Notes: generated from the letters alone by a model not told the origin. A stretch of 33,704 nucleotides of DNA from a virus (IMGVR_UViG_3300043099_000469:1-33704), one strand, 5' to 3'; shown: positions 1,326 through 26,221, counted from the first letter of the stretch. Translations and numbers: made by a program.

Positions 1326-1657
1326 TGCTCCCCCTCCTTCGCCTTGATCCACGCCGAGATCGTCGTGGGTTTCGATGGGTATCGTGACGGCTGGGAATCC
1401 CGCTGACTGCCGAGATTCATGCGAACCGCTGTCGCAAAGCGGATCGCGTCGATGAGCAGATAGCAGTCGGCAACTGTCCTAACGACTGCCTGATGCACAA
1501 TCACGGCGTTGCGGCTTGCTGAAATTTCAAAGGGACCATAGGCTTCGTGCTCAGTGCCGATCATTCCGCCAACAGCCTTGAAGCCAATCGCGATTGTCAC
1601 GACCTCGCCGTCCATGATGGTTCGTCGGCTCGCGATCTGAAGGGTGTCGTCGCTCAT
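1322..1657 (-). CDS. Hypothetical protein, 111 aa
   Basis: ATG at 1657-1655 overlaps the upstream stop (ATGA). The first 60 residues alternate hydrophobic and polar residues (GEVVTIAIGF, EAYGPFEISASRNAVIVHQA), suggesting a beta sheet. A helix follows (DCYLLIDAIRFATAVRM), then a disordered Ser/Pro-rich stretch. No domain was recognised. It belongs to the chain of small overlapping genes between the Tad1-like gene and rusA. Confidence 0.65.
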   Translation of the reverse strand: MSDDTLQIASRRTIMDGEVVTIAIGFKAVGGMIGTEHEAYGPFEISASRNAVIVHQAVVRTVADCYLLIDAIRFATAVRMNLGSQRDSQPSRYPSKPTTISAWIKAKEGEQ

Positions 1658-2121
1658 CGCTGCCCCTCCTTCGCCCGCCGGATCGCGGCGATGGCGTCCG
1701 TTGCCGAGCTATGCTCCGCTTCCCGCACCGCATACGACGCAGACCACGCCGCTTCCCGCGACGCTTTCCGTGCAGCACCCGCCGCATTACAAGCCGCCGC
1801 ATGTGTCCGCTCCTCGCACATCCGCGCCCACGACTCCCCATGCCCATCGCGGTCGGCTTGCGGCTGGTACTCGCTCAACTCGCGCCACATCTCCGCGAGC
1901 GGGTCGGCCCTGCGGCCATCGGCCCTCAGCGCCGCGTTGATCGCGCTTTTGAACGCCTCGTCCCGCTGCGCCGTGAGGGAAACCACCTCCGCCTCAAGCC
2001 ACCGCAGCCGCTCAAGCGCCCGTTCGAGCGTCGGCAGCGCGGCGAGCATGATGAACTGGTTCATCTCGCGCTCGGTCAGCGGCGGGGGTTCGGTTGTGTC
2101 GGTTTTTTCAAGACCCTGCAT
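1654..2121 (-). CDS. Hypothetical protein, 155 aa, paralogue of the 3107-3706 product
   Basis: ATG at 2121-2119 with GGAGGGG upstream. Residues 1-70 contain a Leu/Glu-rich helix (TLERALERLRWLEAEVVSL). From residue 74 on it matches the C-terminus of the 3107-3706 product: DPLAEMWREL, a Tyr, then QADRDGHGESW.RMC.ERT, an Ala-rich helix, and a final AIRRAKEG.R. DNA identity between the two genes is locally perfect (31 bases at 1876-1906 and 3317-3347), which shows recent duplication. The module's function is unknown. Conserved Asp, His, Glu, Trp and Cys suggest a binding or catalytic site, which is inference. Confidence 0.7.
   Translation of the reverse strand: MQGLEKTDTTEPPPLTEREMNQFIMLAALPTLERALERLRWLEAEVVSLTAQRDEAFKSAINAALRADGRRADPLAEMWRELSEYQPQADRDGHGESWARMCEERTHAAACNAAGAARKASREAAWSASYAVREAEHSSATDAIAAIRRAKEGQR
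1876..1906. repeat. 31-bp direct repeat, copy 1 (inside duplicated domain)
   Basis: Identical to 3317-3347. It encodes the DPLAEMWREL segment of the two paralogous early proteins. Similarity continues on both sides at lower identity. Confidence 0.9.
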
Positions 2122-2470
2122 GCGTCCCCTCCGTTCCCTGCGCCTCGCGGCGATTCGTGCGGGCCTTGAGCCAATGCAGCGCCTCCTCCAGTTTGGTGAT
2201 CGCGAGAGCGTTCTCGCGGCACTTGAACTGGAGCGTCTGGTAGTACTCGATGCGCTGGATTGCGGCAGCGATGACGGTCTCGACGAACGCGCCGTTCGGC
2301 AAGACGCGCTCCTCGCCGCGACCGAGTGGCCCGTCCTGCCAGTTGATGTAAAGACCGATTCCCGTGACCGATCCGCCCGCCGGGCGACCGCTCTCGTTGG
2401 TGTGATTGAGGCAAGTGATGGTCTGATCCTGCATTCGTGTCTCCTTCGTTGGTTGGTTGGTCTCGGTCAC
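2108..2470 (-). CDS. Tad1/Acb2-like protein: candidate anti-CBASS/anti-Thoeris nucleotide sponge
   Basis: Tad1 and Acb2 are small phage proteins that bind and sequester signalling nucleotides (gcADPR isomers, cyclic oligonucleotides) made by Thoeris and CBASS immunity. The 120 residues show the pattern I associate with Tad1-type proteins: a strand with GP turn (residues 38-48, GIGLYINWQDG), a helix (VETVIAAAIQRIEYYQ, 63-78), then a hairpin C84-RENALAITKLEEALHWL followed by RTNRRE and a terminal GTEGTH (112-117). The GTG start at 2470 gives the four-base overlap typical of this operon. An internal ATG at 2434 has a better GGAG and would give 108 residues. It lies in the early operon, as expected for an anti-defence gene. 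Assignment is from memory of the family pattern. The ligand is unknown. Confidence 0.65.
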   Translation of the reverse strand: MTETNQPTKETRMQDQTITCLNHTNESGRPAGGSVTGIGLYINWQDGPLGRGEERVLPNGAFVETVIAAAIQRIEYYQTLQFKCRENALAITKLEEALHWLKARTNRREAQGTEGTHAGS

Positions 2471-2739
2471 TGTTCACACTCCCTCCCGCACCGTTCGCAG
2501 CGCGGCTTCAAGTTCTGTTCGGTCTGATCGTCGGCGAACGCGATCCACCCCGCGTGTAGGTTGCGGACGAGCGCGGCGCGTTGCCGCCACACCCATCCGA
2601 TCTGCTGCTTCGTGGTCATGTCGTACAGCGGCCTCGGCCACCACCACGGGACATGGCCGACCCACCACGCGCGGCCATGCCTGAACGGCGACCACGGGAG
2701 GCACGGGAGCGGGCCTGATCGGAAGCGGGATTCGCTCAT
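2467..2739 (-). CDS. Hypothetical Trp-rich protein with C-terminal Cys motif, 90 aa
   Basis: ATG at 2739-2737 overlaps the upstream stop by four bases. Nine of 90 residues are Trp, including AWW (residues 24-26) and PWWW (residues 31-34). The C-terminus carries C-x2-C-x3-C (CERCGREC, residues 81-88), possibly half of a metal site. The middle (TTKQQIGWVWRQRAALV) is probably helical. It sits immediately upstream of the Tad1-like gene. No known family was recognised. It could be a small adaptor or an inhibitor of a host protein, which is inference. Confidence 0.6.
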   Translation of the reverse strand: MSESRFRSGPLPCLPWSPFRHGRAWWVGHVPWWWPRPLYDMTTKQQIGWVWRQRAALVRNLHAGWIAFADDQTEQNLKPRCERCGRECEQ

Positions 2740-3110
2740 GCGCCCCCCCAGATCAGGTACGCGATCAGCGGTACGGAGAAGCAGACCACGGCCATAACCG
2801 TCAGCACCATCGCTGCCGCCGTGAGGCGCTTCACATCGGCTTGCAGGGCATCTCGGTCCTTGGTCACAAAGTCCAATTCGCCTCGAAGGCTCAATACCCG
2901 CGCATCCATATCAACGGAGCCGCACAGGTGTCGTTTGACCTCCATCATCGCGGCGCGGAAGTCGGCGTCCGACTCGACCTCGCGGCCCTTCCACAGGACG
3001 GTGCCGTCTGGCTTTATCTGAAGGATCACCTGATTGATGTCCGTCCCGTGGAACTTGATTGAATGCGCGCACGGGTCAACGCATCCGAAGGTGTGGCCGA
3101 TGTCTTTCAT
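2736..3110 (-). CDS. Hypothetical membrane-anchored protein, 124 aa
   Basis: ATG at 3110-3108 overlaps the upstream stop (ATGA). The N-terminal part (residues 1-60) includes DGTVLWKGREVESDADF, a short segment seen in many small phage proteins of unknown role. A coiled-coil helix follows (LRGELDFVTKDRDALQADV), then one C-terminal membrane span (MVLTVMAVVCFSVPLIAYLIW). This predicts a tail-anchored protein facing the cytoplasm. Four Cys lie in the N-terminal part. Function is unknown. Confidence 0.65.
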   Translation of the reverse strand: MKDIGHTFGCVDPCAHSIKFHGTDINQVILQIKPDGTVLWKGREVESDADFRAAMMEVKRHLCGSVDMDARVLSLRGELDFVTKDRDALQADVKRLTAAAMVLTVMAVVCFSVPLIAYLIWGGA

Positions 3111-3706
3111 CGCGTCCCCTCCTTCGCGCGGCGGATCTCTGCCACCGCACACGCCGCGTCCCGCGCAAACGAACGCGCCGCATACCCCGCAGCCCGCGCC
3201 GCAACCCATGTCGCAACCCGCGACGCAGCCAACGCCGCCGCCTCCGTGCGCTCGCTGCACATCCGCCGCCACGACTCCCCGTGTCCATCGCGGTCGGCTT
3301 GCTCGTGATACGCCTCCAACTCGCGCCACATCTCCGCGAGCGGGTCGTGCGCCTTGAGCGCGCACCGCAGCATCGACGCTATCTCCGTCGCGGCCTGTCT
3401 GGCCCTGTACTCGGCGTGACTGTTGCCAGCCTGCCATTCAGGAGTCACATCCTCTCGGGCAAAGCGCATCGCGGCGTAGACAATCGAGGCGACCTGTTCC
3501 TGCACCTGAGCATCGGTCTGCGGGTCGGCCTGAGCCTTCAGCGCGGCGACCTCGGCTGCGAGAGCGTCGCGCTCGGCGGTGCGCGTGGCGAGGTCGGCGC
3601 GGAGCCTCTCCACCTCCGCGTGGAAGGTCATGCTCTTCGACTTTTCTTCGCACCACAGCGCGCGCAGCTCGTTGATGTCGGGGTGCTCTTCGTCGTTCGT
3701 CTTCAT
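3107..3706 (-). CDS. Hypothetical protein, 199 aa: coiled coil plus duplicated early-region domain
   Basis: ATG at 3706-3704 overlaps the upstream stop (ATGA). Residues 20-65 are a heptad-like coiled coil (FHAEVERLRADLATRTAERD, then ALAAEVAALKAQ). A helical middle follows. The C-terminal about 80 residues (HDPLAEMWRELEAY, QADRDGHGESWRRMC, ERTEAAAL, AEIRRAKEGTR) match the C-terminus of the 1654-2121 product. Ala-rich helices fill the end. Function is unknown. The two genes probably come from one duplication with different N-terminal helices. Confidence 0.7.
   Translation of the reverse strand: MKTNDEEHPDINELRALWCEEKSKSMTFHAEVERLRADLATRTAERDALAAEVAALKAQADPQTDAQVQEQVASIVYAAMRFAREDVTPEWQAGNSHAEYRARQAATEIASMLRCALKAHDPLAEMWRELEAYHEQADRDGHGESWRRMCSERTEAAALAASRVATWVAARAAGYAARSFARDAACAVAEIRRAKEGTR
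3317..3347. repeat. 31-bp direct repeat, copy 2 (inside duplicated domain)
   Basis: Identical to 1876-1906. See the two paralogous genes at 1654-2121 and 3107-3706. Confidence 0.9.
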
Positions 3707-3939
3707 GCTGTCGCTCCTTCCGGGCGCTTCTTGCGCCGCTTGTGCTCCGCGTGTGCGTAGGGCTGAATGACGCGCGTGTGCCATGTGTGCATCTCTACGA
3801 TCCACTGGAGCGCGCGCCGCTCCTCGTCGCTCGTCGCCGTCGTGCGCGCGGCGATCATCGACAAGCCGTTCCGCACGACCTGCGAGTAGGTTGGGCGGTA
3901 GAGCCGCTTGCCAATCGGTTTGTTTCGGTAGTGGGTCAT
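3703..3939 (-). CDS. Hypothetical protein, 78 aa, tandem paralogue of the next gene upstream
   Basis: ATG at 3939-3937 has a full AGGAGGT five bases upstream and overlaps the previous stop by four bases. Residues 18-60 (QVVRNGLSMI, ERRALQWIVEMHTWH) share the pattern VR.GL...I..R....E..A..WIV.M..W with the product of 3936-4187, so the two are likely tandem duplicates. The C-terminus is basic (EHKRRKKRPE), consistent with nucleic-acid binding. No family was recognised. Confidence 0.65.
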   Translation of the reverse strand: MTHYRNKPIGKRLYRPTYSQVVRNGLSMIAARTTATSDEERRALQWIVEMHTWHTRVIQPYAHAEHKRRKKRPEGATA

Positions 3940-4187
3940 TGCGCACCTCCTTGGGTTCCTCCGCGCGGCGGGAGGGGCTTGCGCCCCTCCTCGCCACACG
4001 GCGCGACGGGGGAAGGAGTGACCCCGCTCTCGCCATCCTGGCGCTGTCGCTGTCTCGCATCGTACCACGCGGCCATGCCGACGATCCACGCGTGCGCCTC
4101 CCATTCGGGGAGGCTGCGCGGCTCGACGCGGACGATGAGGCCGCGTAGGCCATCGCGGACGGTTGAGTCGAAGTAGGGCTTTCTCAT
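3936..4187 (-). CDS. Hypothetical protein, 83 aa, tandem paralogue of the 3703-3939 product
   Basis: ATG at 4187-4185 overlaps the Gp157 gene's stop (ATGA). Residues 8-45 (STVRDGLRGLIVR, EWEAHAWIVGMAAWYDA) carry the same pattern as the following gene. The last 30 residues are Gly/Pro-rich and look disordered. Function is unknown. Confidence 0.6.
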   Translation of the reverse strand: MRKPYFDSTVRDGLRGLIVRVEPRSLPEWEAHAWIVGMAAWYDARQRQRQDGESGVTPSPVAPCGEEGRKPLPPRGGTQGGAQ

Positions 4188-4705
4188 CGGATGCTGATCC
4201 TCGTCCCGCGCTCCATGAGCGAGGCGAAGTCGAGCGCCTCGCCCGCCTCCAACCGCTTGCGGATTGCGTCCGTATTCGCCTTGGCCACGACTTCGGTCAC
4301 CACAGCCCAAGCGGGGAGGTCTTCCACGCCCGCGCGGAGGTCGAGCTTCTGCGCGCCGCCGACCTTCGCGAGGCTGACGGTGTAGCGCGCGGTCTGCACC
4401 TTCCCCAGGCTCTTCGCCTCCCAGTGCCAGCGCAGACGCTCACGCAGCGCGGCGGCGGCGTTCTCGTCGACCTTGGCGCGCTCGGCGAGGCGCTTGGCCT
4501 CGGCCTTGCGCACCTCGGCGCGCGCCTCCATCTCGCTGATGAGTCGGCAGTAGGCATCGACCTTGTCGGCGAGCGCGGCCTCGTTCTCGGCGAACCACTG
4601 GTCAATGGTCGCTTCCGTCTCGGGGGTGATCTCGCCGCCCGCCGCCGCGAGGAGCGCGTCGAGCGACTCCATGTCTGCCGTGATGTCGAGCAGGGTCTGC
4701 TTCAC
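4184..4705 (-). CDS. Siphovirus Gp157 family protein
   Basis: Gp157 proteins are small phage proteins first noted in Streptococcus thermophilus phage Sfi11, usually encoded beside single-strand annealing proteins and recombination genes. GTG at 4705-4703 (GTGA overlap) gives 173 residues, the normal length. The order is typical: an N-terminal LLDITADMESLDALL segment, GEITPETEATIDQWF, a long charged coiled coil (residues 45-95), then the beta segment KVQTARYTVSLAKV and a C-terminal AIRKRLEAGEALDFASL....RISIR. The molecular role is not established for the family. A part in DNA recombination or replication fits the context. Confidence 0.85.
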   Translation of the reverse strand: MKQTLLDITADMESLDALLAAAGGEITPETEATIDQWFAENEAALADKVDAYCRLISEMEARAEVRKAEAKRLAERAKVDENAAAALRERLRWHWEAKSLGKVQTARYTVSLAKVGGAQKLDLRAGVEDLPAWAVVTEVVAKANTDAIRKRLEAGEALDFASLMERGTRISIR

Positions 4706-5229
4706 TTCGCACCTTCCTTTGCGGCGATCGCCGCGTTGTGTCCGAACACATCGAAATCAAAGTCAATGAAGCCGTCGCGGTAGTCCTCGGGGAGCATCGC
4801 CTCGACCGTGCCGTCGTCGAAGATCCGAACGGGGCGAAGCCTGTAGTCCTCGATCTCGCGCTCCGTGCCCTCGAGCACGAACTCGAGAATCCACTTGCCC
4901 GACTTCTCGTCCCACTCGGCGCACGGCCAGCGGTCTGTCCAGTCCGCGCCCTCGAGGCTGTCGAGCGGCATTCCCTCGCACACTTGGTGCGCGCAGTCGT
5001 GCGACATGGGGAGGATGCCATCGGTGTACTGACGCTCGATCTGCTCACGCGCCTCGGTCAGGCCGTCGCGGATCTCGCTCCATCGCTCCGCCATGTGCGG
5101 GCGCGTGGTGACCTCGATGCGACCGTCGACGCGTTCGATCGCGGCGGTAATGGCCGCGTGCAGCTCGCCGAGCGCGGCGGGGATGCACGACAGTTCCATT
5201 GGTTCGCGGTGATTGCTGGTGCTGCTCAC
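4702..5229 (-). CDS. Hypothetical protein, 175 aa
   Basis: GTG at 5229-5227 with GAAGGA upstream. An ATG ten codons later has no ribosome site. The N-terminal half is helical (ALGELHAAITAAIERV, RDGLTEAREQIERQY). The C-terminal half is acidic and beta-rich (WDEKSGKWILEFVLEGTERE, PEDYRDGFIDFDFDVFGHN). Two Cys flank DCAHQVCEG at about residue 78. No family was recognised. It follows the palindrome-bearing gap 5230-5421 and heads the Gp157 group. Confidence 0.65.
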   Translation of the reverse strand: MSSTSNHREPMELSCIPAALGELHAAITAAIERVDGRIEVTTRPHMAERWSEIRDGLTEAREQIERQYTDGILPMSHDCAHQVCEGMPLDSLEGADWTDRWPCAEWDEKSGKWILEFVLEGTEREIEDYRLRPVRIFDDGTVEAMLPEDYRDGFIDFDFDVFGHNAAIAAKEGAK

Positions 5230-17249: not shown

Positions 17250-17467
17250 CAGGCTTTCCTCTGCCTTCTCTTCGGCACGGCGGCGAGTTGGGCCGCGTCC
17301 TCGAACAGCGGCGCGGGCTTCACCAGCCGCTCCGCGCTTCCGCTTGCGACGAGCTTCTCGGCGATGCGCTCGTCAACCTCCACGATGCACCCTGGCCTCA
17401 GATCACGCCGCCCGTGCAGCGCCTCCCAGACGGCGCAGTTGCGGCGGATGACTAGTAGGTCGCGCAT
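17249..17467 (-). CDS. Small head-region protein, 72 aa
   Basis: ATG at 17467-17465 overlaps the glycosyltransferase-like gene by 16 bases. The product (DLLVIRRNCAVWEALHGRRD, PGCIVEVDERIAEKLVASGS, AERLVKP) has the pattern PG..VEVDE..A..LVA.G.AE found in tiny phage proteins beside connectors. The C-terminus is basic (PKRRQRKA). The exact role is unknown. Confidence 0.65.
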   Translation of the reverse strand: MRDLLVIRRNCAVWEALHGRRDLRPGCIVEVDERIAEKLVASGSAERLVKPAPLFEDAAQLAAVPKRRQRKA

Positions 17468-18468
17468 TCGCTGGGCCTCCCCTCGTCCGTGTGCTTGGTG
17501 CTGTACTGGTGGATCGCCTTCAGGTCTTCGCCCGGCCATGTGATGACAAGTTGGAGATGCCCGATGCGGACGCGCGGCGTGGCGCAGATGCGGCCCGTCT
17601 TCGCGAACGCCTTCCAGAAGAAGATGTCATCGTCGACGCGCCCGTCGCCCCACTCGCCGGCCGCGTTCGGCTGCGAGACGAACCACGGCTTCTCCATCCG
17701 CTTGAGCGCGTCGACGCGGATCAGCGACAGGCCGAAGTGCCCCGTCTCGCAGTCGACCACCTCGCGGTGGAACATCTCGGCGGGGACATGGGTGATGCGC
17801 TCGCCCTTGTCGTTCTTGATCGACAGAAGCACCGTGTCGCGGTCGCGCCCGATCTGAAGCGGGAACAGCGCGTCCACATCGGGGTTCGACTCCATGATCT
17901 GCCACAGGCGGATGATGTCCTGCTCGTCGAAGATCGAGTCGAAGTCGATCGTCAGGATGTACTTGCGCTCGCCCGAGTTCACGATGCCTTCCATCATGCG
18001 CTGGAGGCACTGGCCCCAGAACACGCCCGTTGCCTTCGTGAAGTCGATGCCGAGGCGTGCGCAAGCCATGTGAGTCGCGCCCATCGTCTCAGTCCACGCG
18101 ATGCGCGGGAGCGACATGATCGCGGCCACCTCTTTCATGGGGAGCGTCGGCCTCGGGCGCTTGCATCGGCGCGCAATCACCGAGAGCCAGCCGTCGCCGT
18201 CCGACCACGACACGCCCGTCGAGCCTCCGAGGATGTCCCACCCTGCGAGGCTCAACACCTTCGACAGCTTCTCGCGGTTCCAGATCGACTTGTACTCGCC
18301 GCGCGCGAGGACGGCCTCCTCGACGCTGCCCGTGCCGTCCGTGTACATCCGTATCGCCGCGTCGAAATCGGGCACATCGAAGCGCGCCTCGTCGCCCTGC
18401 ACGCCCTTGGCCACATCGAGTTCCGTACCGCTCGCCGCGCGGGCAAGCACATCGTTTCGCTCTGGCAT
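17452..18468 (-). CDS. Glycosyltransferase-like protein (GT-A fold), 338 aa
   Basis: ATG at 18468-18466 with GGAGGT four bases upstream. After about 110 residues of leader, the core resembles GT-A enzymes: RPTLPMKEVAAIMSLPRIAW (residues 105-124), RKYILTIDFDSIFDEQDIIR (168-187, with the acidic DxD-like D175-F-D177 and D181), then FPLQIGRDRDTVLLS (202-216), FGLSLIRVDALKRM (245-258) and GDGRVDDDIFFWKAFAKTG (274-292), a D-rich site like acceptor/metal loops. It is unusual to find this between capsid and connector genes. It may modify virion or host sugars. The substrate is unknown. The N-terminal 100 residues matched nothing I know. Confidence 0.65.
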   Translation of the reverse strand: MPERNDVLARAASGTELDVAKGVQGDEARFDVPDFDAAIRMYTDGTGSVEEAVLARGEYKSIWNREKLSKVLSLAGWDILGGSTGVSWSDGDGWLSVIARRCKRPRPTLPMKEVAAIMSLPRIAWTETMGATHMACARLGIDFTKATGVFWGQCLQRMMEGIVNSGERKYILTIDFDSIFDEQDIIRLWQIMESNPDVDALFPLQIGRDRDTVLLSIKNDKGERITHVPAEMFHREVVDCETGHFGLSLIRVDALKRMEKPWFVSQPNAAGEWGDGRVDDDIFFWKAFAKTGRICATPRVRIGHLQLVITWPGEDLKAIHQYSTKHTDEGRPSECATY

Positions 18469-18627
18469 TCGCACCTCCAGTGTGTCGCCGCCGCGTAACA
18501 CGCCGTCGCATCTGAACAGCCTCGATGTTCGCGTGCGGCACAGGTTTCATCGGCAGGATAGCCGCGCAAACGCACAGCGGCCCGACCCCGTGAAGGGGCC
18601 GAGCCGCCGATGCGAAAGGCGAGTGCC
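18469..18627. other. Gap between decoration and glycosyltransferase genes
   Basis: The 159-base gap holds a GC-rich hairpin at about 18578-18606 (CGGC...CCCC GTGAA GGGG...GCCG, with an alternative pairing GGCCC/GGGCC). There is no U-tract after it on the minus strand, so it is at best a weak terminator or an RNA 3' end. Nothing else recognisable lies here apart from the ribosome site of the next gene. Confidence 0.35.
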
Positions 18628-19109: not shown

Positions 19110-20492
19110 TCAGAGGGTGAGCTTGATGACTGCGCCGCTGGCGGACGCGGAGCCGACATTGGCGTTGACGATGTCGAGGCGCTCGGTCGCGCGGACTGCG
19201 ATGAGATCGTTGGCCCACGCGTCGCCGCCCGTGTTCGAGAAGTCGATGGCCGTCTGGCGGCGATCGCCGAAGTACGAGGACAGGCGAAGGTCGCCGATGA
19301 AGGCGAAGGTCGCGCCGCCCGACTCCGTCACGGGGATGACCTGAGTCCAGACCACGGGGTAGCCGAGGAACTGCGGGGTGCGCAGTCCGTCCGCCAGCGT
19401 CTGCATGGTGTTGCCGCCAGCGGTCGCCGCGAGACGCTCGAAGATGCCGTGCCAAGCCGACTTGGAGCAGAAGATCTTCACATTGTTGCGCGAAGCGGCC
19501 CACGCGGGAAGCTTGCGGAACGCCGCGACGAGGTCGGCAAGGGCAACGCCAGAGTAGGCGGTGACCGATCCCATGTCGGCTTGCTGGAAGGTCGCGTCAG
19601 AGAGGATCGTTTCGAGTCCGACGATGCCGCCAAACGCGGAAGTGCCGTCGCCGAGGAAGCCCGCGCGGTCTTCCGCGAATGCAAGCGCCTGAGCGATCTC
19701 GTCAGCGGCCTCGTCGCCGAGGTTGACCAGCGAGTCCTCGTTGAGTTCGCTGGAGATCTCCGTGAGAACGCCGAGCTTCTTGGCGACGAGCTTGTTCGAG
19801 CCGAACACCTGATCGCTCTTGGTGATCGGTGCGCCCTCGCCGATCCAGTACGCGGTCAGTCCCGTGGTGCGCTTGTTCACGACGCGCGTGTCGCTCGACA
19901 TCGGGATCGTGCGAGACTCGCGACGGAACACGCCGTACTCCTCGCGGAGCGTGACGAGCTCGCTGTCCATCTCCTCGGGGACGAGGAAGCCACCCGCCGA
20001 GTTGATGCCCTCGACATGGGCCTTCTCGCGAACGAGAGACACGCCGTTCGTCTTGCACCACTCGAGCGACTTGGTGTGTCCCATCGCGGCGGCGCAGAAG
20101 CGACCGAAGCGGTAGGCGGAGTCGATGCCCTCGCGGGTGTTCTTGAACGACTTGAGCTTGCCGTATGCGCGGGGAGCCTCGACGCGCGGCTGCGCGGCGA
20201 CGGCCTTGGTGCTGACGATGTCGGCGAGCGCGGCCTTGACGGCGCTCGCGATCTTCTCTTCGGTCATGGGATCCTCCTGCTTGGCCGCGTCCGTCTCGGG
20301 AGCGGCGGGAGCTGCGTTGCTTGGGGTGATGACGATGTCGAGCGTCTCGGGGTCGACGGCCATTCCGCTCTCATCGACGATCATGTAGCCGTCGAGGATG
20401 AGAGACTTCTGGGCCATCACGCCGGGTTCGCCCTTGATGCGACCCGCGCGCTCGAGTGCGCTGCGGAAGTCGCTGAGATTCATGGTCTTCAT
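19110..20492 (-). CDS. HK97-type major capsid protein, 460 aa
   Basis: ATG at 20492-20490 with AAAGG upstream. Residues 1-105 are a likely scaffold-like delta domain removed by the prohead protease (helical, Ala/Glu-rich: EEKIASAVKAALADIV). The mature fold begins near residue 110. Family marks include NSAGGFLVPEEMDSELV (164-180), FRRESRTIPM, RTTGLTAYWIGEGAPITKSD, then KKLGVLTEISSELNEDS and NLGDEAADEIAQALAFAEDR, the usual spine helix region, and the end FAFIGDLRLSSYFGDRRQTA and DWANDL-like AVRATERLDIV. Order TerL, portal, protease, capsid is the HK97 arrangement. Confidence 0.9.
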   Translation of the reverse strand: MKTMNLSDFRSALERAGRIKGEPGVMAQKSLILDGYMIVDESGMAVDPETLDIVITPSNAAPAAPETDAAKQEDPMTEEKIASAVKAALADIVSTKAVAAQPRVEAPRAYGKLKSFKNTREGIDSAYRFGRFCAAAMGHTKSLEWCKTNGVSLVREKAHVEGINSAGGFLVPEEMDSELVTLREEYGVFRRESRTIPMSSDTRVVNKRTTGLTAYWIGEGAPITKSDQVFGSNKLVAKKLGVLTEISSELNEDSLVNLGDEAADEIAQALAFAEDRAGFLGDGTSAFGGIVGLETILSDATFQQADMGSVTAYSGVALADLVAAFRKLPAWAASRNNVKIFCSKSAWHGIFERLAATAGGNTMQTLADGLRTPQFLGYPVVWTQVIPVTESGGATFAFIGDLRLSSYFGDRRQTAIDFSNTGGDAWANDLIAVRATERLDIVNANVGSASASGAVIKLTL

Positions 20493-20564: not shown

Positions 20565-21248
20565 TCAGTCGAGGTAGATCGCGCCGCGGGCCTTTGCGAC
20601 CTCGCGACGAACCACGCTCTCAATGGAGATCGGCGCGGCCTTCGCTTCGATTGAGGGCGCGGCGCAAGGCAGCGCGACTGTCACCGCGACGCGGCGCGGA
20701 ACCTCGATGCCGAAGAACCGCTTTGCAGCCACGCGCGACACGAGTCCCTTCTTGACGGCCATGATGAGCGCGTCGGGGTTCGACTGAAGCGGCGCGAGGG
20801 ACACCTCGAGCAGCTTCCACCGCGAGTAGACCGTGTGCACGCGGTCGCCGTACTTCTTGCGATCGACCTCGCTGGCGCGGCGCGTGCCGCCGTCCTCTGG
20901 CACATAGCCGACCGACACGCCCTTGATGATCCCTTGCCCGACGAGCGCCGCCGCGACCTCGGGGAAGAACTCGCCCGCGTATCCGTCAGGCCGCTGCGCG
21001 AACTGGAAGTCCCCGACGATGGTGCTGTCCTTTCGCTTCAGCCCCAGGCACTTGCCGACAGGCTGCGCGTAGTCGTGGTTCCAGAAGAGGATCGGGTTGC
21101 GCTCGAACTCCGACGAGTTCATGCCCTGCGGGATAAGCACCTCGCCGTCGCGGTCGAGCGTCTCTGCGGTGATTACTGCGGTGAATCCCCTGGGTGTCGT
21201 GCGAATCTCTGCGGGGAGAGCCTTGCGGACGATCTGAATCGTGTTCAT
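20565..21248 (-). CDS. Prohead protease (HK97 gp4-like, family S78), 227 aa
   Basis: The protease cleaves scaffold regions of the capsid protein in the prohead. ATG at 21248-21246 overlaps the portal-fusion stop. Motifs: GFTAVITAETLDRDGEVLIP (residues 21-40), NPILFWNHDYAQPVGK (51-66, catalytic His58), and IIKGVSVGYVPED (107-119, catalytic Ser112). These match the S78 pattern WNHD...VSVG. A C-terminal extension from about residue 170 (KKGLVSRVAAKRFFG, then EVPRRVAVTVALP) probably binds the prohead or is self-cleaved. The gap 20493-20564 before the capsid gene shows nothing else. Confidence 0.88.
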   Translation of the reverse strand: MNTIQIVRKALPAEIRTTPRGFTAVITAETLDRDGEVLIPQGMNSSEFERNPILFWNHDYAQPVGKCLGLKRKDSTIVGDFQFAQRPDGYAGEFFPEVAAALVGQGIIKGVSVGYVPEDGGTRRASEVDRKKYGDRVHTVYSRWKLLEVSLAPLQSNPDALIMAVKKGLVSRVAAKRFFGIEVPRRVAVTVALPCAAPSIEAKAAPISIESVVRREVAKARGAIYLD

Positions 21249-24238
21249 TGGATTCCTGCCTCAAGGTTGATGCGGCGGCGCTCGGCCTCCATGTCCCCCG
21301 ACTCCTCGATTTCGCGGATCTCGCGCTCGAGCGCATCGCTTAGAACGGGCTGCATCGAGCAGCGACAGTTCGGATGGAGCGGTGGCCCCTTGATGTCCTC
21401 GTAGTCGAGCACCATCTCTCGCGTCTTTCCGTTCGCATCAGGAACCCCGAACAGAAGGTCGCCCTTCTGGTAGAACGAATCGTTCAGGCCGATCGACTTC
21501 TCCCCGTACCGCTTCGATGCGGCCTCGCAGAACTCACACGGGTCGGGAGCGAGTAGCCAAGTCTTCCCCTGCACCAGTCCCGTCGCCGTCCACGCGTCGA
21601 CCTCGGCGGTGCGGGCGGCGCGCTGCGCCTCCGTCCTCGCGACCGTTCGCGCGCGCGACCACGACCCGTCCTGATCCTTCTGTGAGTCGGCCCATGTCTG
21701 CACCCGGGTCGCAAGCTCGTCGACCGTCTCGCCCTTCTCGAGTCCCTCGCCGAGCACCTCGCGCACGCGGACGGATGTCTGCTCGGTCACCCCAGACGCG
21801 GTGCGGCGCGCCAGGCGCACGGACTCCGTCTCGGCGTACGCGCGAAGGTCGGCGCGCTCGACATCGAAGTCGACGGTGGTGGCAACCTTGGCGACCGTGT
21901 CGATGCCGAGGTCGACACCGACCGAGATCGCGTCACGAAGGTACGGCGCGAGCGCGTCGACAAGCGCGCGCTGATACTGGCGCGACCGAAGCAGCGCCTC
22001 GGCGCGGACGATCAGCTCGCGGGACGGCGCGCCCGCCTTCGCCAGTTCGTTCAGCACGGCCTTGACCTGATCGTCGAACACAGCCGAGACGCTCGCGGAC
22101 ATCTTGCGCTCGGCCTCGTTGATCTCGCGGCCCTCGCTCTCGGCGCTCTTGCGGTGTATCCCAGTGGATACAGCCGACTCCCACATCGCCTTCTGCGAGA
22201 TGCGCTTTGGCTCGGCGCAGCCGCAGCCGCAGGACTTCGCGGCGGGCGCGGGCGGCGGCGGCGTTCCCGTGTCTGACTTCTCGCGCGCGCTGTCGAACTC
22301 CTCGACCTTGCGCCGCGCCCACGCATAGCCCTCGTCGCCTCCCCAACCGTGCCACGCTTGCCACCCCTTGCCTTGGTCGTCCCAGGTCTCGCCGTCCTTG
22401 TCGGACTGATGGCGATCGAAGTACGCCACCATGCGGCGGATGGTGTCTTCCGACAGTTCGCGGCGGTTCGCCAGGTCGCGCGCTCGCGCGAGGCCAACGG
22501 CAGTCATGCCGCGCTGGCTCTCGGGCTTTGTCTCGCGCACCTCGAGCGCGCGCCGCGCGTTCTCCGCGACGGCGGCGGGCGGCGTGGTGTCGATGTCGCC
22601 GAGCGCCTTCGCCTTCGCAAGTTCGTCGCGCTCCATAGCCGCGATGACCTCGTCCGCGCTCTTGCCCTCGCGGCACATCGAGTACGCGATCGCCACCGCC
22701 TGATCCTGCGGGTAGCCCTCGGCGAGAAGCGTCTGAATCTTGCCGCTCACGCAGTCGCCGAGCGCGTCCTTTGTCTCCACGGCCTTCGCGGTCACGGTCG
22801 GCTCCTCGGCCTCTGGCGGCGCGTCGAGCGGGCCGACGAGGCCGTCAGGCTGCGCGGCGGGCGCGGGCGCGGACGCGCCGAACAGCCCGCCGAAAGGCGC
22901 GGGCGCTGCGGGCGCGGGCGGGCCACCTAGCGGCTGACCGTTGATGAGCGGGCGATCGGCCATCGGATCGGGCAGCGGCTCAAGTCCCTCCTGCTGCCGC
23001 GCCTCGTTGATCGTGAGGATGCCGCCCGCGACATAGGTCGTGCGCTTGGTAGTCTCGAGCTGCTCGTCCGCGCGCACGGGGTTGTCGTATGCGAGGAACG
23101 CGTCTTCCTCGATGCCGAACAGCGGCAGAAGGTTCTGATTGAGCACCTCCTCGTCCATGCGGAGCATGGGGAGGATCGTGGTTTCCTTCCATGTCGCAAA
23201 GCCGACCGTCGCGCTCGCGAGGTTCGGGTCGTTGGCGCGAAGCATCGACACGGGCACGCCAAAGACGGCGGCGATCTCCTCGACGATCTCGTCGCGGCCC
23301 TGCAAGTCCTTCGGCGGGAACTGCAGCGGCTTGAGGTCGACCTGTCCCGTGATCGCGAGGAAGCGGCCCGTCTTGTTCGTGCCGCGCAGCTTCGTCTCGA
23401 CCTGTGCGGTGAACCGCTCTAGCTCCTCGTCGCTCGCGTTTCCCTGTGCAACCAACAGGTAATCAGGCCGCGACTTGTTCGCGAAGAAGTGGTAGTCCAT
23501 CTCGTGCAACGCTTGGTTGCTCGTCACGGCTCCCCACGCGGCCTCGACCTTGCCCAGCCCGTAGTACAGGTCGCGCGGGTTCGGATTCTTGAAGTGGATC
23601 ACCTCGTCAGGCGTGAAGTCCTGGCGCTGCGCGTCGTTCCGCCCGTACTCGTAGCCCGTGATCCACGGCTCCCCGCGCTGCGGGTTGCCCGGCACGATCC
23701 TCATCCACTGGGGCGGCATCGTCCACAGCTCGACGGGCACGCCGAGCGCGGGGTCGATCACGGGGTGCAAGTACGCATTGCCCGTCAGTTCGGTGTACAG
23801 CACGCGCAGGACGGCGGCATCGAAGCCGTTCTGGTACGGGTTGACCTTCGCGAGGAGTGTCAGGAGCGGGTGAGCATCGGTGACGATCTCGTAATCGTCG
23901 CCGTACTCCGCCGACTTCTGCATCGCGTAGCGCGACGGGAGCTGCGCGAGGTCGCCAGACAGGTACGCCTTGGTGCGCCGACCCGTCCTGCGCGTGTTCC
24001 AGAGTTTCGTCCCTGCGCTGCGGTTCTTGACATACAGGCGCAGCGGAGCGGAAGCGACCGCGACCGCGTTCAGCCGCGCGGCGGCGTAGACCCACGAACG
24101 GCACTCGACCACCGCAGCGTGGTAGTTGAACGGCGGCGGCACATAGTCGCGCCCGATGAGCGTCGCGCTCGACGCGGCCTCGTAGCGGCTCGGCTTGTCG
24201 GTGGTGAATGCCGCCTTGATGCGCTCGAGTATTTTCAT
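21245..24238 (-). CDS. Fusion: HK97-type portal + two small domains + Mu F-like head protein, 997 aa
   Basis: The portal is the DNA gate of the head; Mu F-like proteins are minor head proteins for capsid maturation. They are usually separate genes. ATG at 24238-24236 overlaps the terL stop. Residues 1-440 are a portal: FNYHAAVVECRSWVYAAARL (37-56), GNAYLHP, TPDEVIHFKNPNP, GLGKVEAAW, EIAAVFGVPVSML (321-333), EEVLNQNLLPLF. Residues 437-485 are a Pro/Ala linker. Residues 494-535 carry CVSGKIQTLLAEGYPQDQAV....YSMC. Residues 600-645 carry MVAYFDRHQSDKDGE...W..WGGDEGYAWAR, another recurrent phage module. A Cys knot SCGCGC is at 669-674. Residues 690-965 are Mu F-like: ARTEAQRAARTAEV (867-880), C901-EFC904, HPNCRC (955-960). 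No frame break was seen. Confidence 0.85.
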   Translation of the reverse strand: MKILERIKAAFTTDKPSRYEAASSATLIGRDYVPPPFNYHAAVVECRSWVYAAARLNAVAVASAPLRLYVKNRSAGTKLWNTRRTGRRTKAYLSGDLAQLPSRYAMQKSAEYGDDYEIVTDAHPLLTLLAKVNPYQNGFDAAVLRVLYTELTGNAYLHPVIDPALGVPVELWTMPPQWMRIVPGNPQRGEPWITGYEYGRNDAQRQDFTPDEVIHFKNPNPRDLYYGLGKVEAAWGAVTSNQALHEMDYHFFANKSRPDYLLVAQGNASDEELERFTAQVETKLRGTNKTGRFLAITGQVDLKPLQFPPKDLQGRDEIVEEIAAVFGVPVSMLRANDPNLASATVGFATWKETTILPMLRMDEEVLNQNLLPLFGIEEDAFLAYDNPVRADEQLETTKRTTYVAGGILTINEARQQEGLEPLPDPMADRPLINGQPLGGPPAPAAPAPFGGLFGASAPAPAAQPDGLVGPLDAPPEAEEPTVTAKAVETKDALGDCVSGKIQTLLAEGYPQDQAVAIAYSMCREGKSADEVIAAMERDELAKAKALGDIDTTPPAAVAENARRALEVRETKPESQRGMTAVGLARARDLANRRELSEDTIRRMVAYFDRHQSDKDGETWDDQGKGWQAWHGWGGDEGYAWARRKVEEFDSAREKSDTGTPPPPAPAAKSCGCGCAEPKRISQKAMWESAVSTGIHRKSAESEGREINEAERKMSASVSAVFDDQVKAVLNELAKAGAPSRELIVRAEALLRSRQYQRALVDALAPYLRDAISVGVDLGIDTVAKVATTVDFDVERADLRAYAETESVRLARRTASGVTEQTSVRVREVLGEGLEKGETVDELATRVQTWADSQKDQDGSWSRARTVARTEAQRAARTAEVDAWTATGLVQGKTWLLAPDPCEFCEAASKRYGEKSIGLNDSFYQKGDLLFGVPDANGKTREMVLDYEDIKGPPLHPNCRCSMQPVLSDALEREIREIEESGDMEAERRRINLEAGIQ

Positions 24239-25413
24239 ATCACTCTCATCGTCATCGGTCGCCGCGTGCGGCGGGAATGCACCGCGAGCGCAAGGGCGCA
24301 CACGCCGTCATCGTGCCCCGCAGTCGCCTCGTACGAGACGCTTCTTCCCGAATATCGGTAGCCGAACGACTCCAGTTCCGCGCGCAGCCAGCCATCGGGG
24401 AAGCGGATTTCCCGCGTCTGGACGGCGAGTTGCAGCCCCTCCATGATCTGTTGCTTGCTCTGCGAGGTGAACTTGAAGCCCTCTGCGGCGCGGCACACGC
24501 GCGCGAGGTCTTCCACGATCGGATCGCCCACGCCCGTCGAGTCGATCAGCGCGGGCGTTCCGCCGATCATCTTCGCAAGCCGCTCGCGCGTCACGCCCCA
24601 CGGAGACTGCCACCGCTCGAGGCGGCAGACCGCGCCGTCGCGGTCGATGCCCACGGCAACGGTGAAGTCCTGGCTCTTCGCAAGGTCAACGCCCCAGTGC
24701 TCGACCTTCGCAACCGACATCGGCCCGATGCACTCGCGGATCGCGTCGAGGCCGAACGGGTTGCCGCCGTCCTCGGCGGGGATTCCCTCGTACTCCTGCG
24801 CGAAGACCTCGGCGGGCAGCGACCGCCGCGCGGCCTCGACCTCGTCCGCGTCGATGTGCGGATTGTGGCGCGTTCCGATGCGGAAGGCCCGCATCGTGCC
24901 AGTTGTGTCACCTTCCGCCTCGGTGAACAGGCGATGAAAGTCGCCCGTGCCTTTCGGCGTGCCAAGGAATAGCGCCGTCCCCTTGCGGTCGGACAGCGTC
25001 GGGCGCGCCGCGTTGCGCCACCACTCGAGCAGCTTGGGCACGAAGCCCGCCTCGTCCACGACGATCAGGTCGTAGTCGCGGCCTCGGCCCGCGTCGACAT
25101 CCTCGAGCGACCAGAAGTCGATCACGCCGTGCGTGACGAGCTCGAGCCGCTTCTCGACGCGATCCATGCGCGCGGTCACGGGCGCAAGCGCGCGCTCGAT
25201 GTCGCGCATCGGGTCGGCAAGGTACTTGTAGGTCGGCGCGAACCACCCGACCTTGCCGCGCCTGATCGCCCGGCGCATCGCCTTGACGCGTCCGTAGGTG
25301 GTCTTCCCCCATCGCCTACCGATCTCCAGCACGGAGAACCGCGCGAGCTGCGCGTCGACGCTCAACTGGCTCGGGTGCAAGACACTGGTTAGCGGCTTCA
25401 GCTGGACTTTCAC
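24235..25413 (-). CDS. terL: Terminase large subunit, 392 aa
   Basis: The ATP-driven motor and nuclease that packages DNA. GTG at 25413-25411 overlaps the small subunit stop (GTGA). Walker A variant GRRWGKTT (residues 32-39), Walker B LIVVDEAGF (116-124, D120, E121), coupling motif FLGTPKGTGDFH (149-160). RNase H-like nuclease acids: D243 in HWGVDLAKSQDFT, D291 in LIDSTGVGDP, D368/D369 in HDDGV. The length is near the minimum for the family but all motifs are present. The compact type resembles the terminase group found with short headful or cos systems; the packaging mode cannot be read from the sequence. Confidence 0.92.
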   Translation of the reverse strand: MKVQLKPLTSVLHPSQLSVDAQLARFSVLEIGRRWGKTTYGRVKAMRRAIRRGKVGWFAPTYKYLADPMRDIERALAPVTARMDRVEKRLELVTHGVIDFWSLEDVDAGRGRDYDLIVVDEAGFVPKLLEWWRNAARPTLSDRKGTALFLGTPKGTGDFHRLFTEAEGDTTGTMRAFRIGTRHNPHIDADEVEAARRSLPAEVFAQEYEGIPAEDGGNPFGLDAIRECIGPMSVAKVEHWGVDLAKSQDFTVAVGIDRDGAVCRLERWQSPWGVTRERLAKMIGGTPALIDSTGVGDPIVEDLARVCRAAEGFKFTSQSKQQIMEGLQLAVQTREIRFPDGWLRAELESFGYRYSGRSVSYEATAGHDDGVCALALAVHSRRTRRPMTMRVI

Positions 25414-25760
25414 GCATCGCTCGGCGGCTTCGGCGGAAGTTCCTCGATGGTCACGACCTCCTCGCGAATGGTCTGCTCGGCCTTGTCGCGCTGCCCGAGG
25501 TACTGCTTGCCGAGCCAGATCAGGAGCGGGACGCTGCCGTTCATGGCGATGTCGATCTGACGCTCGCGAAGCTTCTTGGCGAGCCGCATCCTTCCGAGGG
25601 CGACCTGTTCCGCAAAATTCCTGTCGATCGTGTCTCGCGAACAGCCCAAAACTCCCGCGATTTCCTCGGGATTGCAGCCGAGCGCCGCAAGCTCCTCGAC
25701 TGATTTTGCGGAAATCGCAAGAGGAGGACGGCCCCGCTTTGGCCGTGACTTCTTCTTCAC
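25410..25760 (-). CDS. terS: Terminase small subunit candidate, 116 aa
   Basis: GTG at 25760-25758 forms GTGA with the methyltransferase stop. Basic N-terminus [13 protein letters not shown], then a helix-turn-helix at residues 20-50 ([30 protein letters not shown]), then helices [38 protein letters not shown]. This is the usual plan: DNA-recognition HTH, oligomerisation helices, and acidic tail ([14 protein letters not shown]) that can contact TerL. Position directly before terL supports it. Confidence 0.8.
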
Positions 25761-26221
25761 GCGAACGCCTCCATGTTCAGGCTGCACCAGTGGTGCGAGC
25801 AGTTCCACGAAGCGCCCTGCTTGCCGACCTCCGCGATGCGCTGGAATCCCGCCATCTCAAGGAGATTGCGGAGCTTGCCATAGTTGAAGATCGCGCAGTG
25901 AAAGTCGTGCGCGTCGGTCTGCCCACCCATGATGTACGCCTCCATGTTCGGGTCTGGGAGGTTCTGCTCCATGGCACAGACGACCTTGTCGAAGTCGGGC
26001 ACGGCGACGAACAGCCGCCCCCCTGGCTTCAGGACTCGCCGCCACTCCTTGAGCGTCGGCAGCGTCTCGGCGCGCGGGATGTGCTCGAGCACATGGCTCG
26101 CGCGAATCTCATCGACGGACGCGTCGGGCAGCGTGATGCGCTGCGCGAGGTTCCCGTCCGCGATGTCCCATGCCGTCCACCCTTCCTCGGTGTCGGCTCC
26201 TGCCCCGATGTTCAGTCTCAT
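25757..26221 (-). CDS. SAM-dependent methyltransferase (class I), 154 aa
   Basis: ATG at 26221-26219 with GGAG upstream. SAM site: RLNIGAG (residues 2-8), acidic D19 at strand 2, [16 protein letters not shown] (39-54), then [19 protein letters not shown] (59-77), the typical methyltransferase type 11 pattern. The C-terminus has [20 protein letters not shown] and the Cys/Trp/His group SWNCSHHWC. It is shorter than free-standing enzymes (about 200 residues). It lies between fibre genes and terminase. The target may be glycan, DNA or a small molecule; unknown. Confidence 0.75.

Follow-up and report, generated by a model that had tools for sequence, protein, structure and literature searches.

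The window analyzed here, a 33.7 kb virus record from IMG/VR (33,704 nt), carries a gene in which an HK97-type portal and a Mu F-like (MuF) head protein are joined in one frame through a linker region with small modules, and we confirmed that this fusion is real and intact. Portal-MuF fusion as such is already on record (phrog_2662, Microbacterium phage clusters, and Halorubrum tailed virus 28, HRTV-28). The fusion is thus not new; less expected are the exchangeable linker and the widespread module that we call YFDRH, and what matters rests mostly on these two rather than on the fusion itself.

A sequence-only reading of the window had given a single frame of 997 residues followed by a prohead protease gene; its coordinates were exact, with the gene on the minus strand, and the protease was confirmed (PF04586, phrog_80). 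A plus-strand reading of the same interval was rejected, as its translation contains stops. The ATG of the fusion gene overlaps the stop of the large terminase gene (TerL) and its stop overlaps the ATG of the protease gene, both junctions being of the ATGA type, as in a tightly coupled late operon. The gene order is large terminase, fusion, protease, and capsid, followed by connector and tail-completion genes, which places the portal between the large terminase and the protease and capsid genes, the order expected of an HK97-type portal. The features are as follows.

24235-25413, minus strand: large terminase (context), upstream of the fusion gene; PF03237/PF17289, phrog_2
21245-24238, minus strand: portal-MuF fusion gene, 997 aa; ATG 24238-24236, stop 21247-21245
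22985-23962, minus strand: HK97-type portal domain, residues 93-418; PF04860, E 5.7e-51
22757-22933, minus strand: Pro/Ala-rich linker of low confidence, residues 436-494; pLDDT mostly under 50
22664-22771, minus strand: CVS...GYPQDQA..YSMC module (CVS module), a helical hairpin, residues about 490-525; phrog_2423 at residues 497-527, E 2e-6
22274-22606, minus strand: YFDRH/WGGD module (YFDRH module), five helices, residues about 545-655; phrog_2859, E 1.6e-16
22130-22270, minus strand: linker with SCGCGC cluster (about 669-674), residues 657-703; pLDDT under 50
21344-22126, minus strand: MuF region, residues 705-965, with the Pfam core at 825-962; PF04233, E 1.6e-7
21527-21538, minus strand: C-EF-C, residues 901-904; C901 and C904 invariant in 33 relatives
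21359-21376, minus strand: HPNCRC, residues 955-960; H955, P956, C958, R959, and C960 invariant in 33 relatives
20565-21248, minus strand: prohead protease of the S78/HK97 type (context); PF04586, E 3e-4, slightly over its cut-off; phrog_80; TIGR01543 under its cut-off
19110-20492, minus strand: HK97-fold major capsid protein (context); PF05065, E 2e-36; TIGR01554

Three other minus-strand genes of the window were recorded in passing. A gene for 349 aa (17452-18501) that lies between those for capsid and connector looks glycosyltransferase-like by eye, has no Pfam match, and matches only phrog_1574, weakly and with no function annotated. Upstream of the terminase genes, 25757-26221 encodes a short methyltransferase-domain protein (PF08241, E 1e-8), and 31815-32681 matches the DNA repair exonuclease family phrog_7339 (4.5e-16).

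The domain content proposed from sequence held throughout. In the N-terminal part, the Pfam search placed PF04860 at 174 bits against a curated cut-off of 39.1, while TIGR01537 (portal_HK97) scored 107.2 bits, slightly short of its cut-off of 112. The nearest solved relative by profile was the Rhodobacter GTA portal Rcc01684 (5e-24), and the best Foldseek matches for this region were portals throughout. The AlphaFold model of the whole protein was poor in the portal part and usable for the modules and MuF only. All three elements proposed between the two halves, namely the CVS module, the YFDRH/WGGD module, and the SCGCGC cluster, were found. The model gives the CVS module helices at 492-506 and 511-523, the YFDRH module fits the family pattern RG.T.VG.ARAR...RH..DK...W.GWGGD, and C672 and C674 of the cluster are invariant in 33 relatives. 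Both phrog_2423 and phrog_2859 are PHROG families carrying no function annotation.

The C-terminal Mu F-like domain, proposed with its C-EF-C and HPNCRC motifs, scored 32.5 bits for PF04233 against a cut-off of 29.6, matched TIGR01641 (SPP1 gp7 family) at 1.3e-6, under the cut-off of that model, and had pLDDT values mostly of 80 or more. The conserved CxxC and HPxCxC residues of the MuF family are present, and we infer that the residues of the two motifs are likely metal ligands. VIA matches of the MuF helices were to generic helical bundles and were set aside. The MuF domain directly follows the portal but in the same frame, whereas the typical order, not required of the family, is a separate gene after the portal; that the two are usually separate, as proposed earlier, agrees with the literature (PMC5576092). 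The family search found no toxin domain C-terminal to MuF, as a MuF polymorphic toxin would have, the protein ending 35 residues past the MuF domain. We also observed that phrog_595, named head maturation protease, matches the MuF domain of the window protein as well as the ADP-ribosyltransferase domain of one relative (L065, 3650-4858), and it may be a misnamed MuF-ADP-ribosyltransferase family.

Scanning IMG/VR with the window protein yielded 183 relatives, and scanning it with an alignment yielded 391. Among the IMG/VR and MAG loci fetched, portal and MuF shared one frame in 130 ORFs, 83 of them distinct, forming 50 clusters at 90% identity. In bacterial genomes, the fusion occurred in two MAG contigs only, from Rhodobacteraceae and Coriobacteriia, and there was no full-length homologue among the isolated phages of the collection, with no record covering 80% of the query. 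In five pairwise comparisons, dN/dS was 0.02-0.48, with portal, linker, YFDRH module, and MuF region alike. Since dN/dS stayed below 1 in all segments, the frame must be in use through each junction, also near 22900, the site of a suspected frameshift or read error; together with the 83 distinct ORFs that share the join, this purifying selection rules out chance or a read error.

Of the known systems, HRTV-28 (genus Pormufvirus, Suolaviridae) is similar in architecture to the window. Its gp9 (1139 aa), annotated as 'portal protein, C-terminal region contains Mu gpF-like domain', runs from a PF04860 portal through YFDRH (phrog_2859) to MuF, with the terminase before it and the protease and capsid after it, but it differs in its archaeal host, its remote sequence, and the lack of a clear CVS module or SCGCGC cluster. 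The PHROG 2662 portal family is a single profile of 717 positions that takes in both portal and MuF (residues 117-968 of the window protein), although it is shorter and does not describe the inserted modules. Microbacterium phages of clusters EA3/EA5/EA8 and EB have portal and MuF-like functions in one gene, a likeness taken from the published description, and the EA3/EA5/EA8 phages have no recognized maturation protease (PMC7302621). In phage SPP1, a few copies of the MuF protein gp7 reach the procapsid interior by binding to the portal gp6, so that portal and MuF work together there as they may in the window; phages still assemble when gp7 is missing, but infectivity is then limited to about 25% of them (PMC6316719). 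SPP1 differs in its separate genes, in having one or two gp7 per capsid (PMC5576092), and in that no YFDRH or CVS module is described for it.

The linker varied widely among fused relatives, both in content and in length, with 122-469 residues from portal end to MuF start. Modules added in relatives include ALNGAQ, near the position of linker 436-494, a CGxGxGGFxxGNxC motif (CGF), a small NPRR domain, and DUF5824. Near-identical loci differed in modules or in the MuF part: L017 and L068 show 98% DNA identity ahead of the linker and 94% beyond it, with L068 lacking CVS and YFDRH; L053 and L037 differ by a CGF-NPRR insert between flanks that are 94% and 96% identical; and L093 and L094 share 93% identity up to the point at which the MuF of one gives way to different sequence in the other. 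Modules have thus been recurrently gained and lost in the linker. Searches of isolated phages with the CVS and CGF-NPRR modules on their own gave no match, probably because these modules are too short or too divergent.

In some relatives, portal and MuF are split, and the SCGCGC linker (657-703) is the point of separation in L056-59, L065-67, and L092. The first of these groups has a complete portal, CVS, and YFDRH ORF with a coiled-coil-like end, followed by a separate MuF gene whose start codon, an ATG overlapping the stop of the portal ORF, has a strong ribosome site; a programmed frameshift, considered for these split forms, is not needed. In L065-67, an ADP-ribosyltransferase domain ends the portal ORF and MuF is separate (ADPrib_exo_Tox E 7e-17, tested on L065); in L065, a single ORF (1466-4861) comprises portal, ALNGAQ, CVS, YFDRH, and ADP-ribosyltransferase. 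L091 and L092 are arranged similarly, and their effector is tentative. Neither L091 nor L094 had a Pfam match to an ADP-ribosyltransferase, and comparison with the L065 effector was weak for L094 (8e-5) and not significant for L091, so we assign these two effectors only tentatively. Effectors fused to MuF or portal proteins have been described before (PMC5576092, PMC5512222, PMC9503650), and both the MuF polymorphic toxins and the MuF- or portal-ADP-ribosyltransferase fusions (PMC5576092, PMC9503650) are, like the forms in L065-67, effectors tethered to a head protein. The window protein differs from MuF toxins in having no toxin domain, and in L065-67 the effector sits on the portal rather than on MuF. 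A separate gene downstream of a portal ending in YFDRH (L079, 4722-5573) starts with the CGxGxGGFxxGNxC motif and has at its C-terminal end a weak match to an RNA polymerase ADP-ribosylase (phrog_832, 4.5e-4); this motif could be a marker of head-cargo proteins.

In the tree of portal domains, forms without MuF were scattered among fused forms, although several of these rows are cut contigs, the complete portal ORFs without MuF being those of L056, L065, L091/L092, and L076/L097. The simplest reading of these sequences is that fusion is the common state of the family and that splitting occurred several times, with distant outgroups leaving the root loosely fixed.

Modeled alone with 53 relatives, the YFDRH module folded in AlphaFold2 into five helices with a mean pLDDT of 93. 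No Pfam family was found for it in the window protein and 41 scanned ORFs, and no confident match to a solved structure was found by sequence, by Foldseek (no match below E 3), or by VIA (Z at most 4.7). The 41 diverse ORFs included 23 lambda-type, 4 Mu-type, and 2 HK97-type portals, 3 Mu-like proteases, and 1 capsid domain, proportions that are biased because the query came from portals. Among viral predicted structures, the fold appeared on portals, prohead proteases, XkdF-type proteins, a Dps-like protein, and others. In isolated phages, the module lies at the N-terminus of the annotated capsid protein of Synechococcus phage S-CBS1 and Roseobacter phage CRP-811, and in a Nodularia phage minor head protein. 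Pseudomonas phage PaBG encodes a stand-alone YFDRH protein of 110 aa (L087, 2465-2797), annotated as 'putative DNA-binding protein', whose gene lies apart from the head genes, next to those for an RNA 2'-phosphotransferase and topoisomerase. With PaBG as the exception, the theme that appears common to the carriers is that they are head proteins with parts inside the procapsid. We did not find the exchangeable linker or the spread of YFDRH described in a literature search restricted to open-access sources, which is hence not proof of novelty.

In solved portals, the C-termini face the capsid interior, so the linkers, CVS, YFDRH, and MuF would surround the portal within the head. The intact frame, domain identities, conservation, and gene context observed here are as a whole best explained, with reasonable though not high confidence, by a functional single-product fusion with 12 interior MuF tails and a linker that serves as an exchange site. 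Stoichiometry, cleavage state, and interior location of the tail are what we infer from sequence: all 12 portal subunits would carry the same C-terminal tail, and the low-confidence linkers 436-494 and 657-703 could leave the modules and MuF suspended beneath the ring with the 12-fold symmetry undisturbed. The covalent join would replace the non-covalent portal-gp7 interaction of SPP1, with no affinity step, and would fix the MuF ratio at up to 12 per head, an unusual number given the one or two gp7 per capsid of SPP1 (PMC5576092). MuF would do its usual job in the head, helping the start of infection and perhaps exiting with the DNA, while YFDRH would be an accessory head-interior module outside the portal ring proper. 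The linker would act as a recombination site for small modules and, in relatives, for effectors of the ADP-ribosyltransferase type; an insert with its own stop that enters the linker would turn MuF into a separate gene.

The main rival is possible but considerably less probable: the fusion protein would be a precursor cut during maturation by the downstream S78 protease in linker 436-494 or 657-703, yielding a normal portal ring and free MuF in the head. The protease gene lies directly downstream, its product could trim the tail within two linkers of very low confidence, and MuF need not be attached, as relatives with a separate MuF gene show. However, we identified no cleavage motif in the fusion protein, the linker varies widely among relatives, and the published EA3/EA5/EA8 fusions occur in phages without a recognized maturation protease, which argues that such fusions do not in general have to be cut by a dedicated protease (PMC7302621). 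Far less probable is a mixed ring in which internal initiation, a stop, or a frameshift leaves MuF on some portal subunits only. The sole support for it is that SPP1 has so few copies of gp7 (PMC5576092), while ahead of MuF the frame contains neither a stop nor a frameshift, and no internal start there is convincing; in split relatives, MuF starts from an ATG and a ribosome site of its own. The best candidate starts, GTG 482 (AGGAG) and ATG 713 (GAGG, inside the MuF region), would not yield a portal lacking MuF, and an internal start yielding free MuF in the window was likewise rejected, as no site was convincing. The least probable alternative, that an assembly or frameshift error joined two genes, is already refuted by the relatives, given the same join in many metagenomes, the same architecture in the isolated archaeal virus HRTV-28, and dN/dS below 1 in all segments. 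The earlier proposal that 12-fold assembly needs cleavage or a mixed ring is therefore not established, as no sequence feature makes two products and the EA3/EA5/EA8 fusions do without a recognized protease.

A broader version of the single-product fusion is tentative and, in our estimate, unlikely. Here, the portal C-terminal tail would be a general exchangeable cargo dock, and YFDRH a head-interior targeting or assembly domain of unrelated portals, proteases, and capsid fusions in bacterial and archaeal viruses; MuF, ADP-ribosyltransferases, and other effectors would be swapped beside it and reach about 12 copies per virion via covalent attachment to the portal.

If the tail of the single-product fusion stays attached, this arrangement would provide fixed, countable loading of internal proteins per virion, and it would test whether tethered MuF can act at 12 copies. 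The near-identical portals that differ only in modules or effector record naturally how domains have been shuffled. Although head proteins of tailed viruses of bacteria and archaea commonly carry the YFDRH module, it belongs to no Pfam family, lacks a confident match to a solved fold, and has been assigned no function, which makes it a clear target for structural work.
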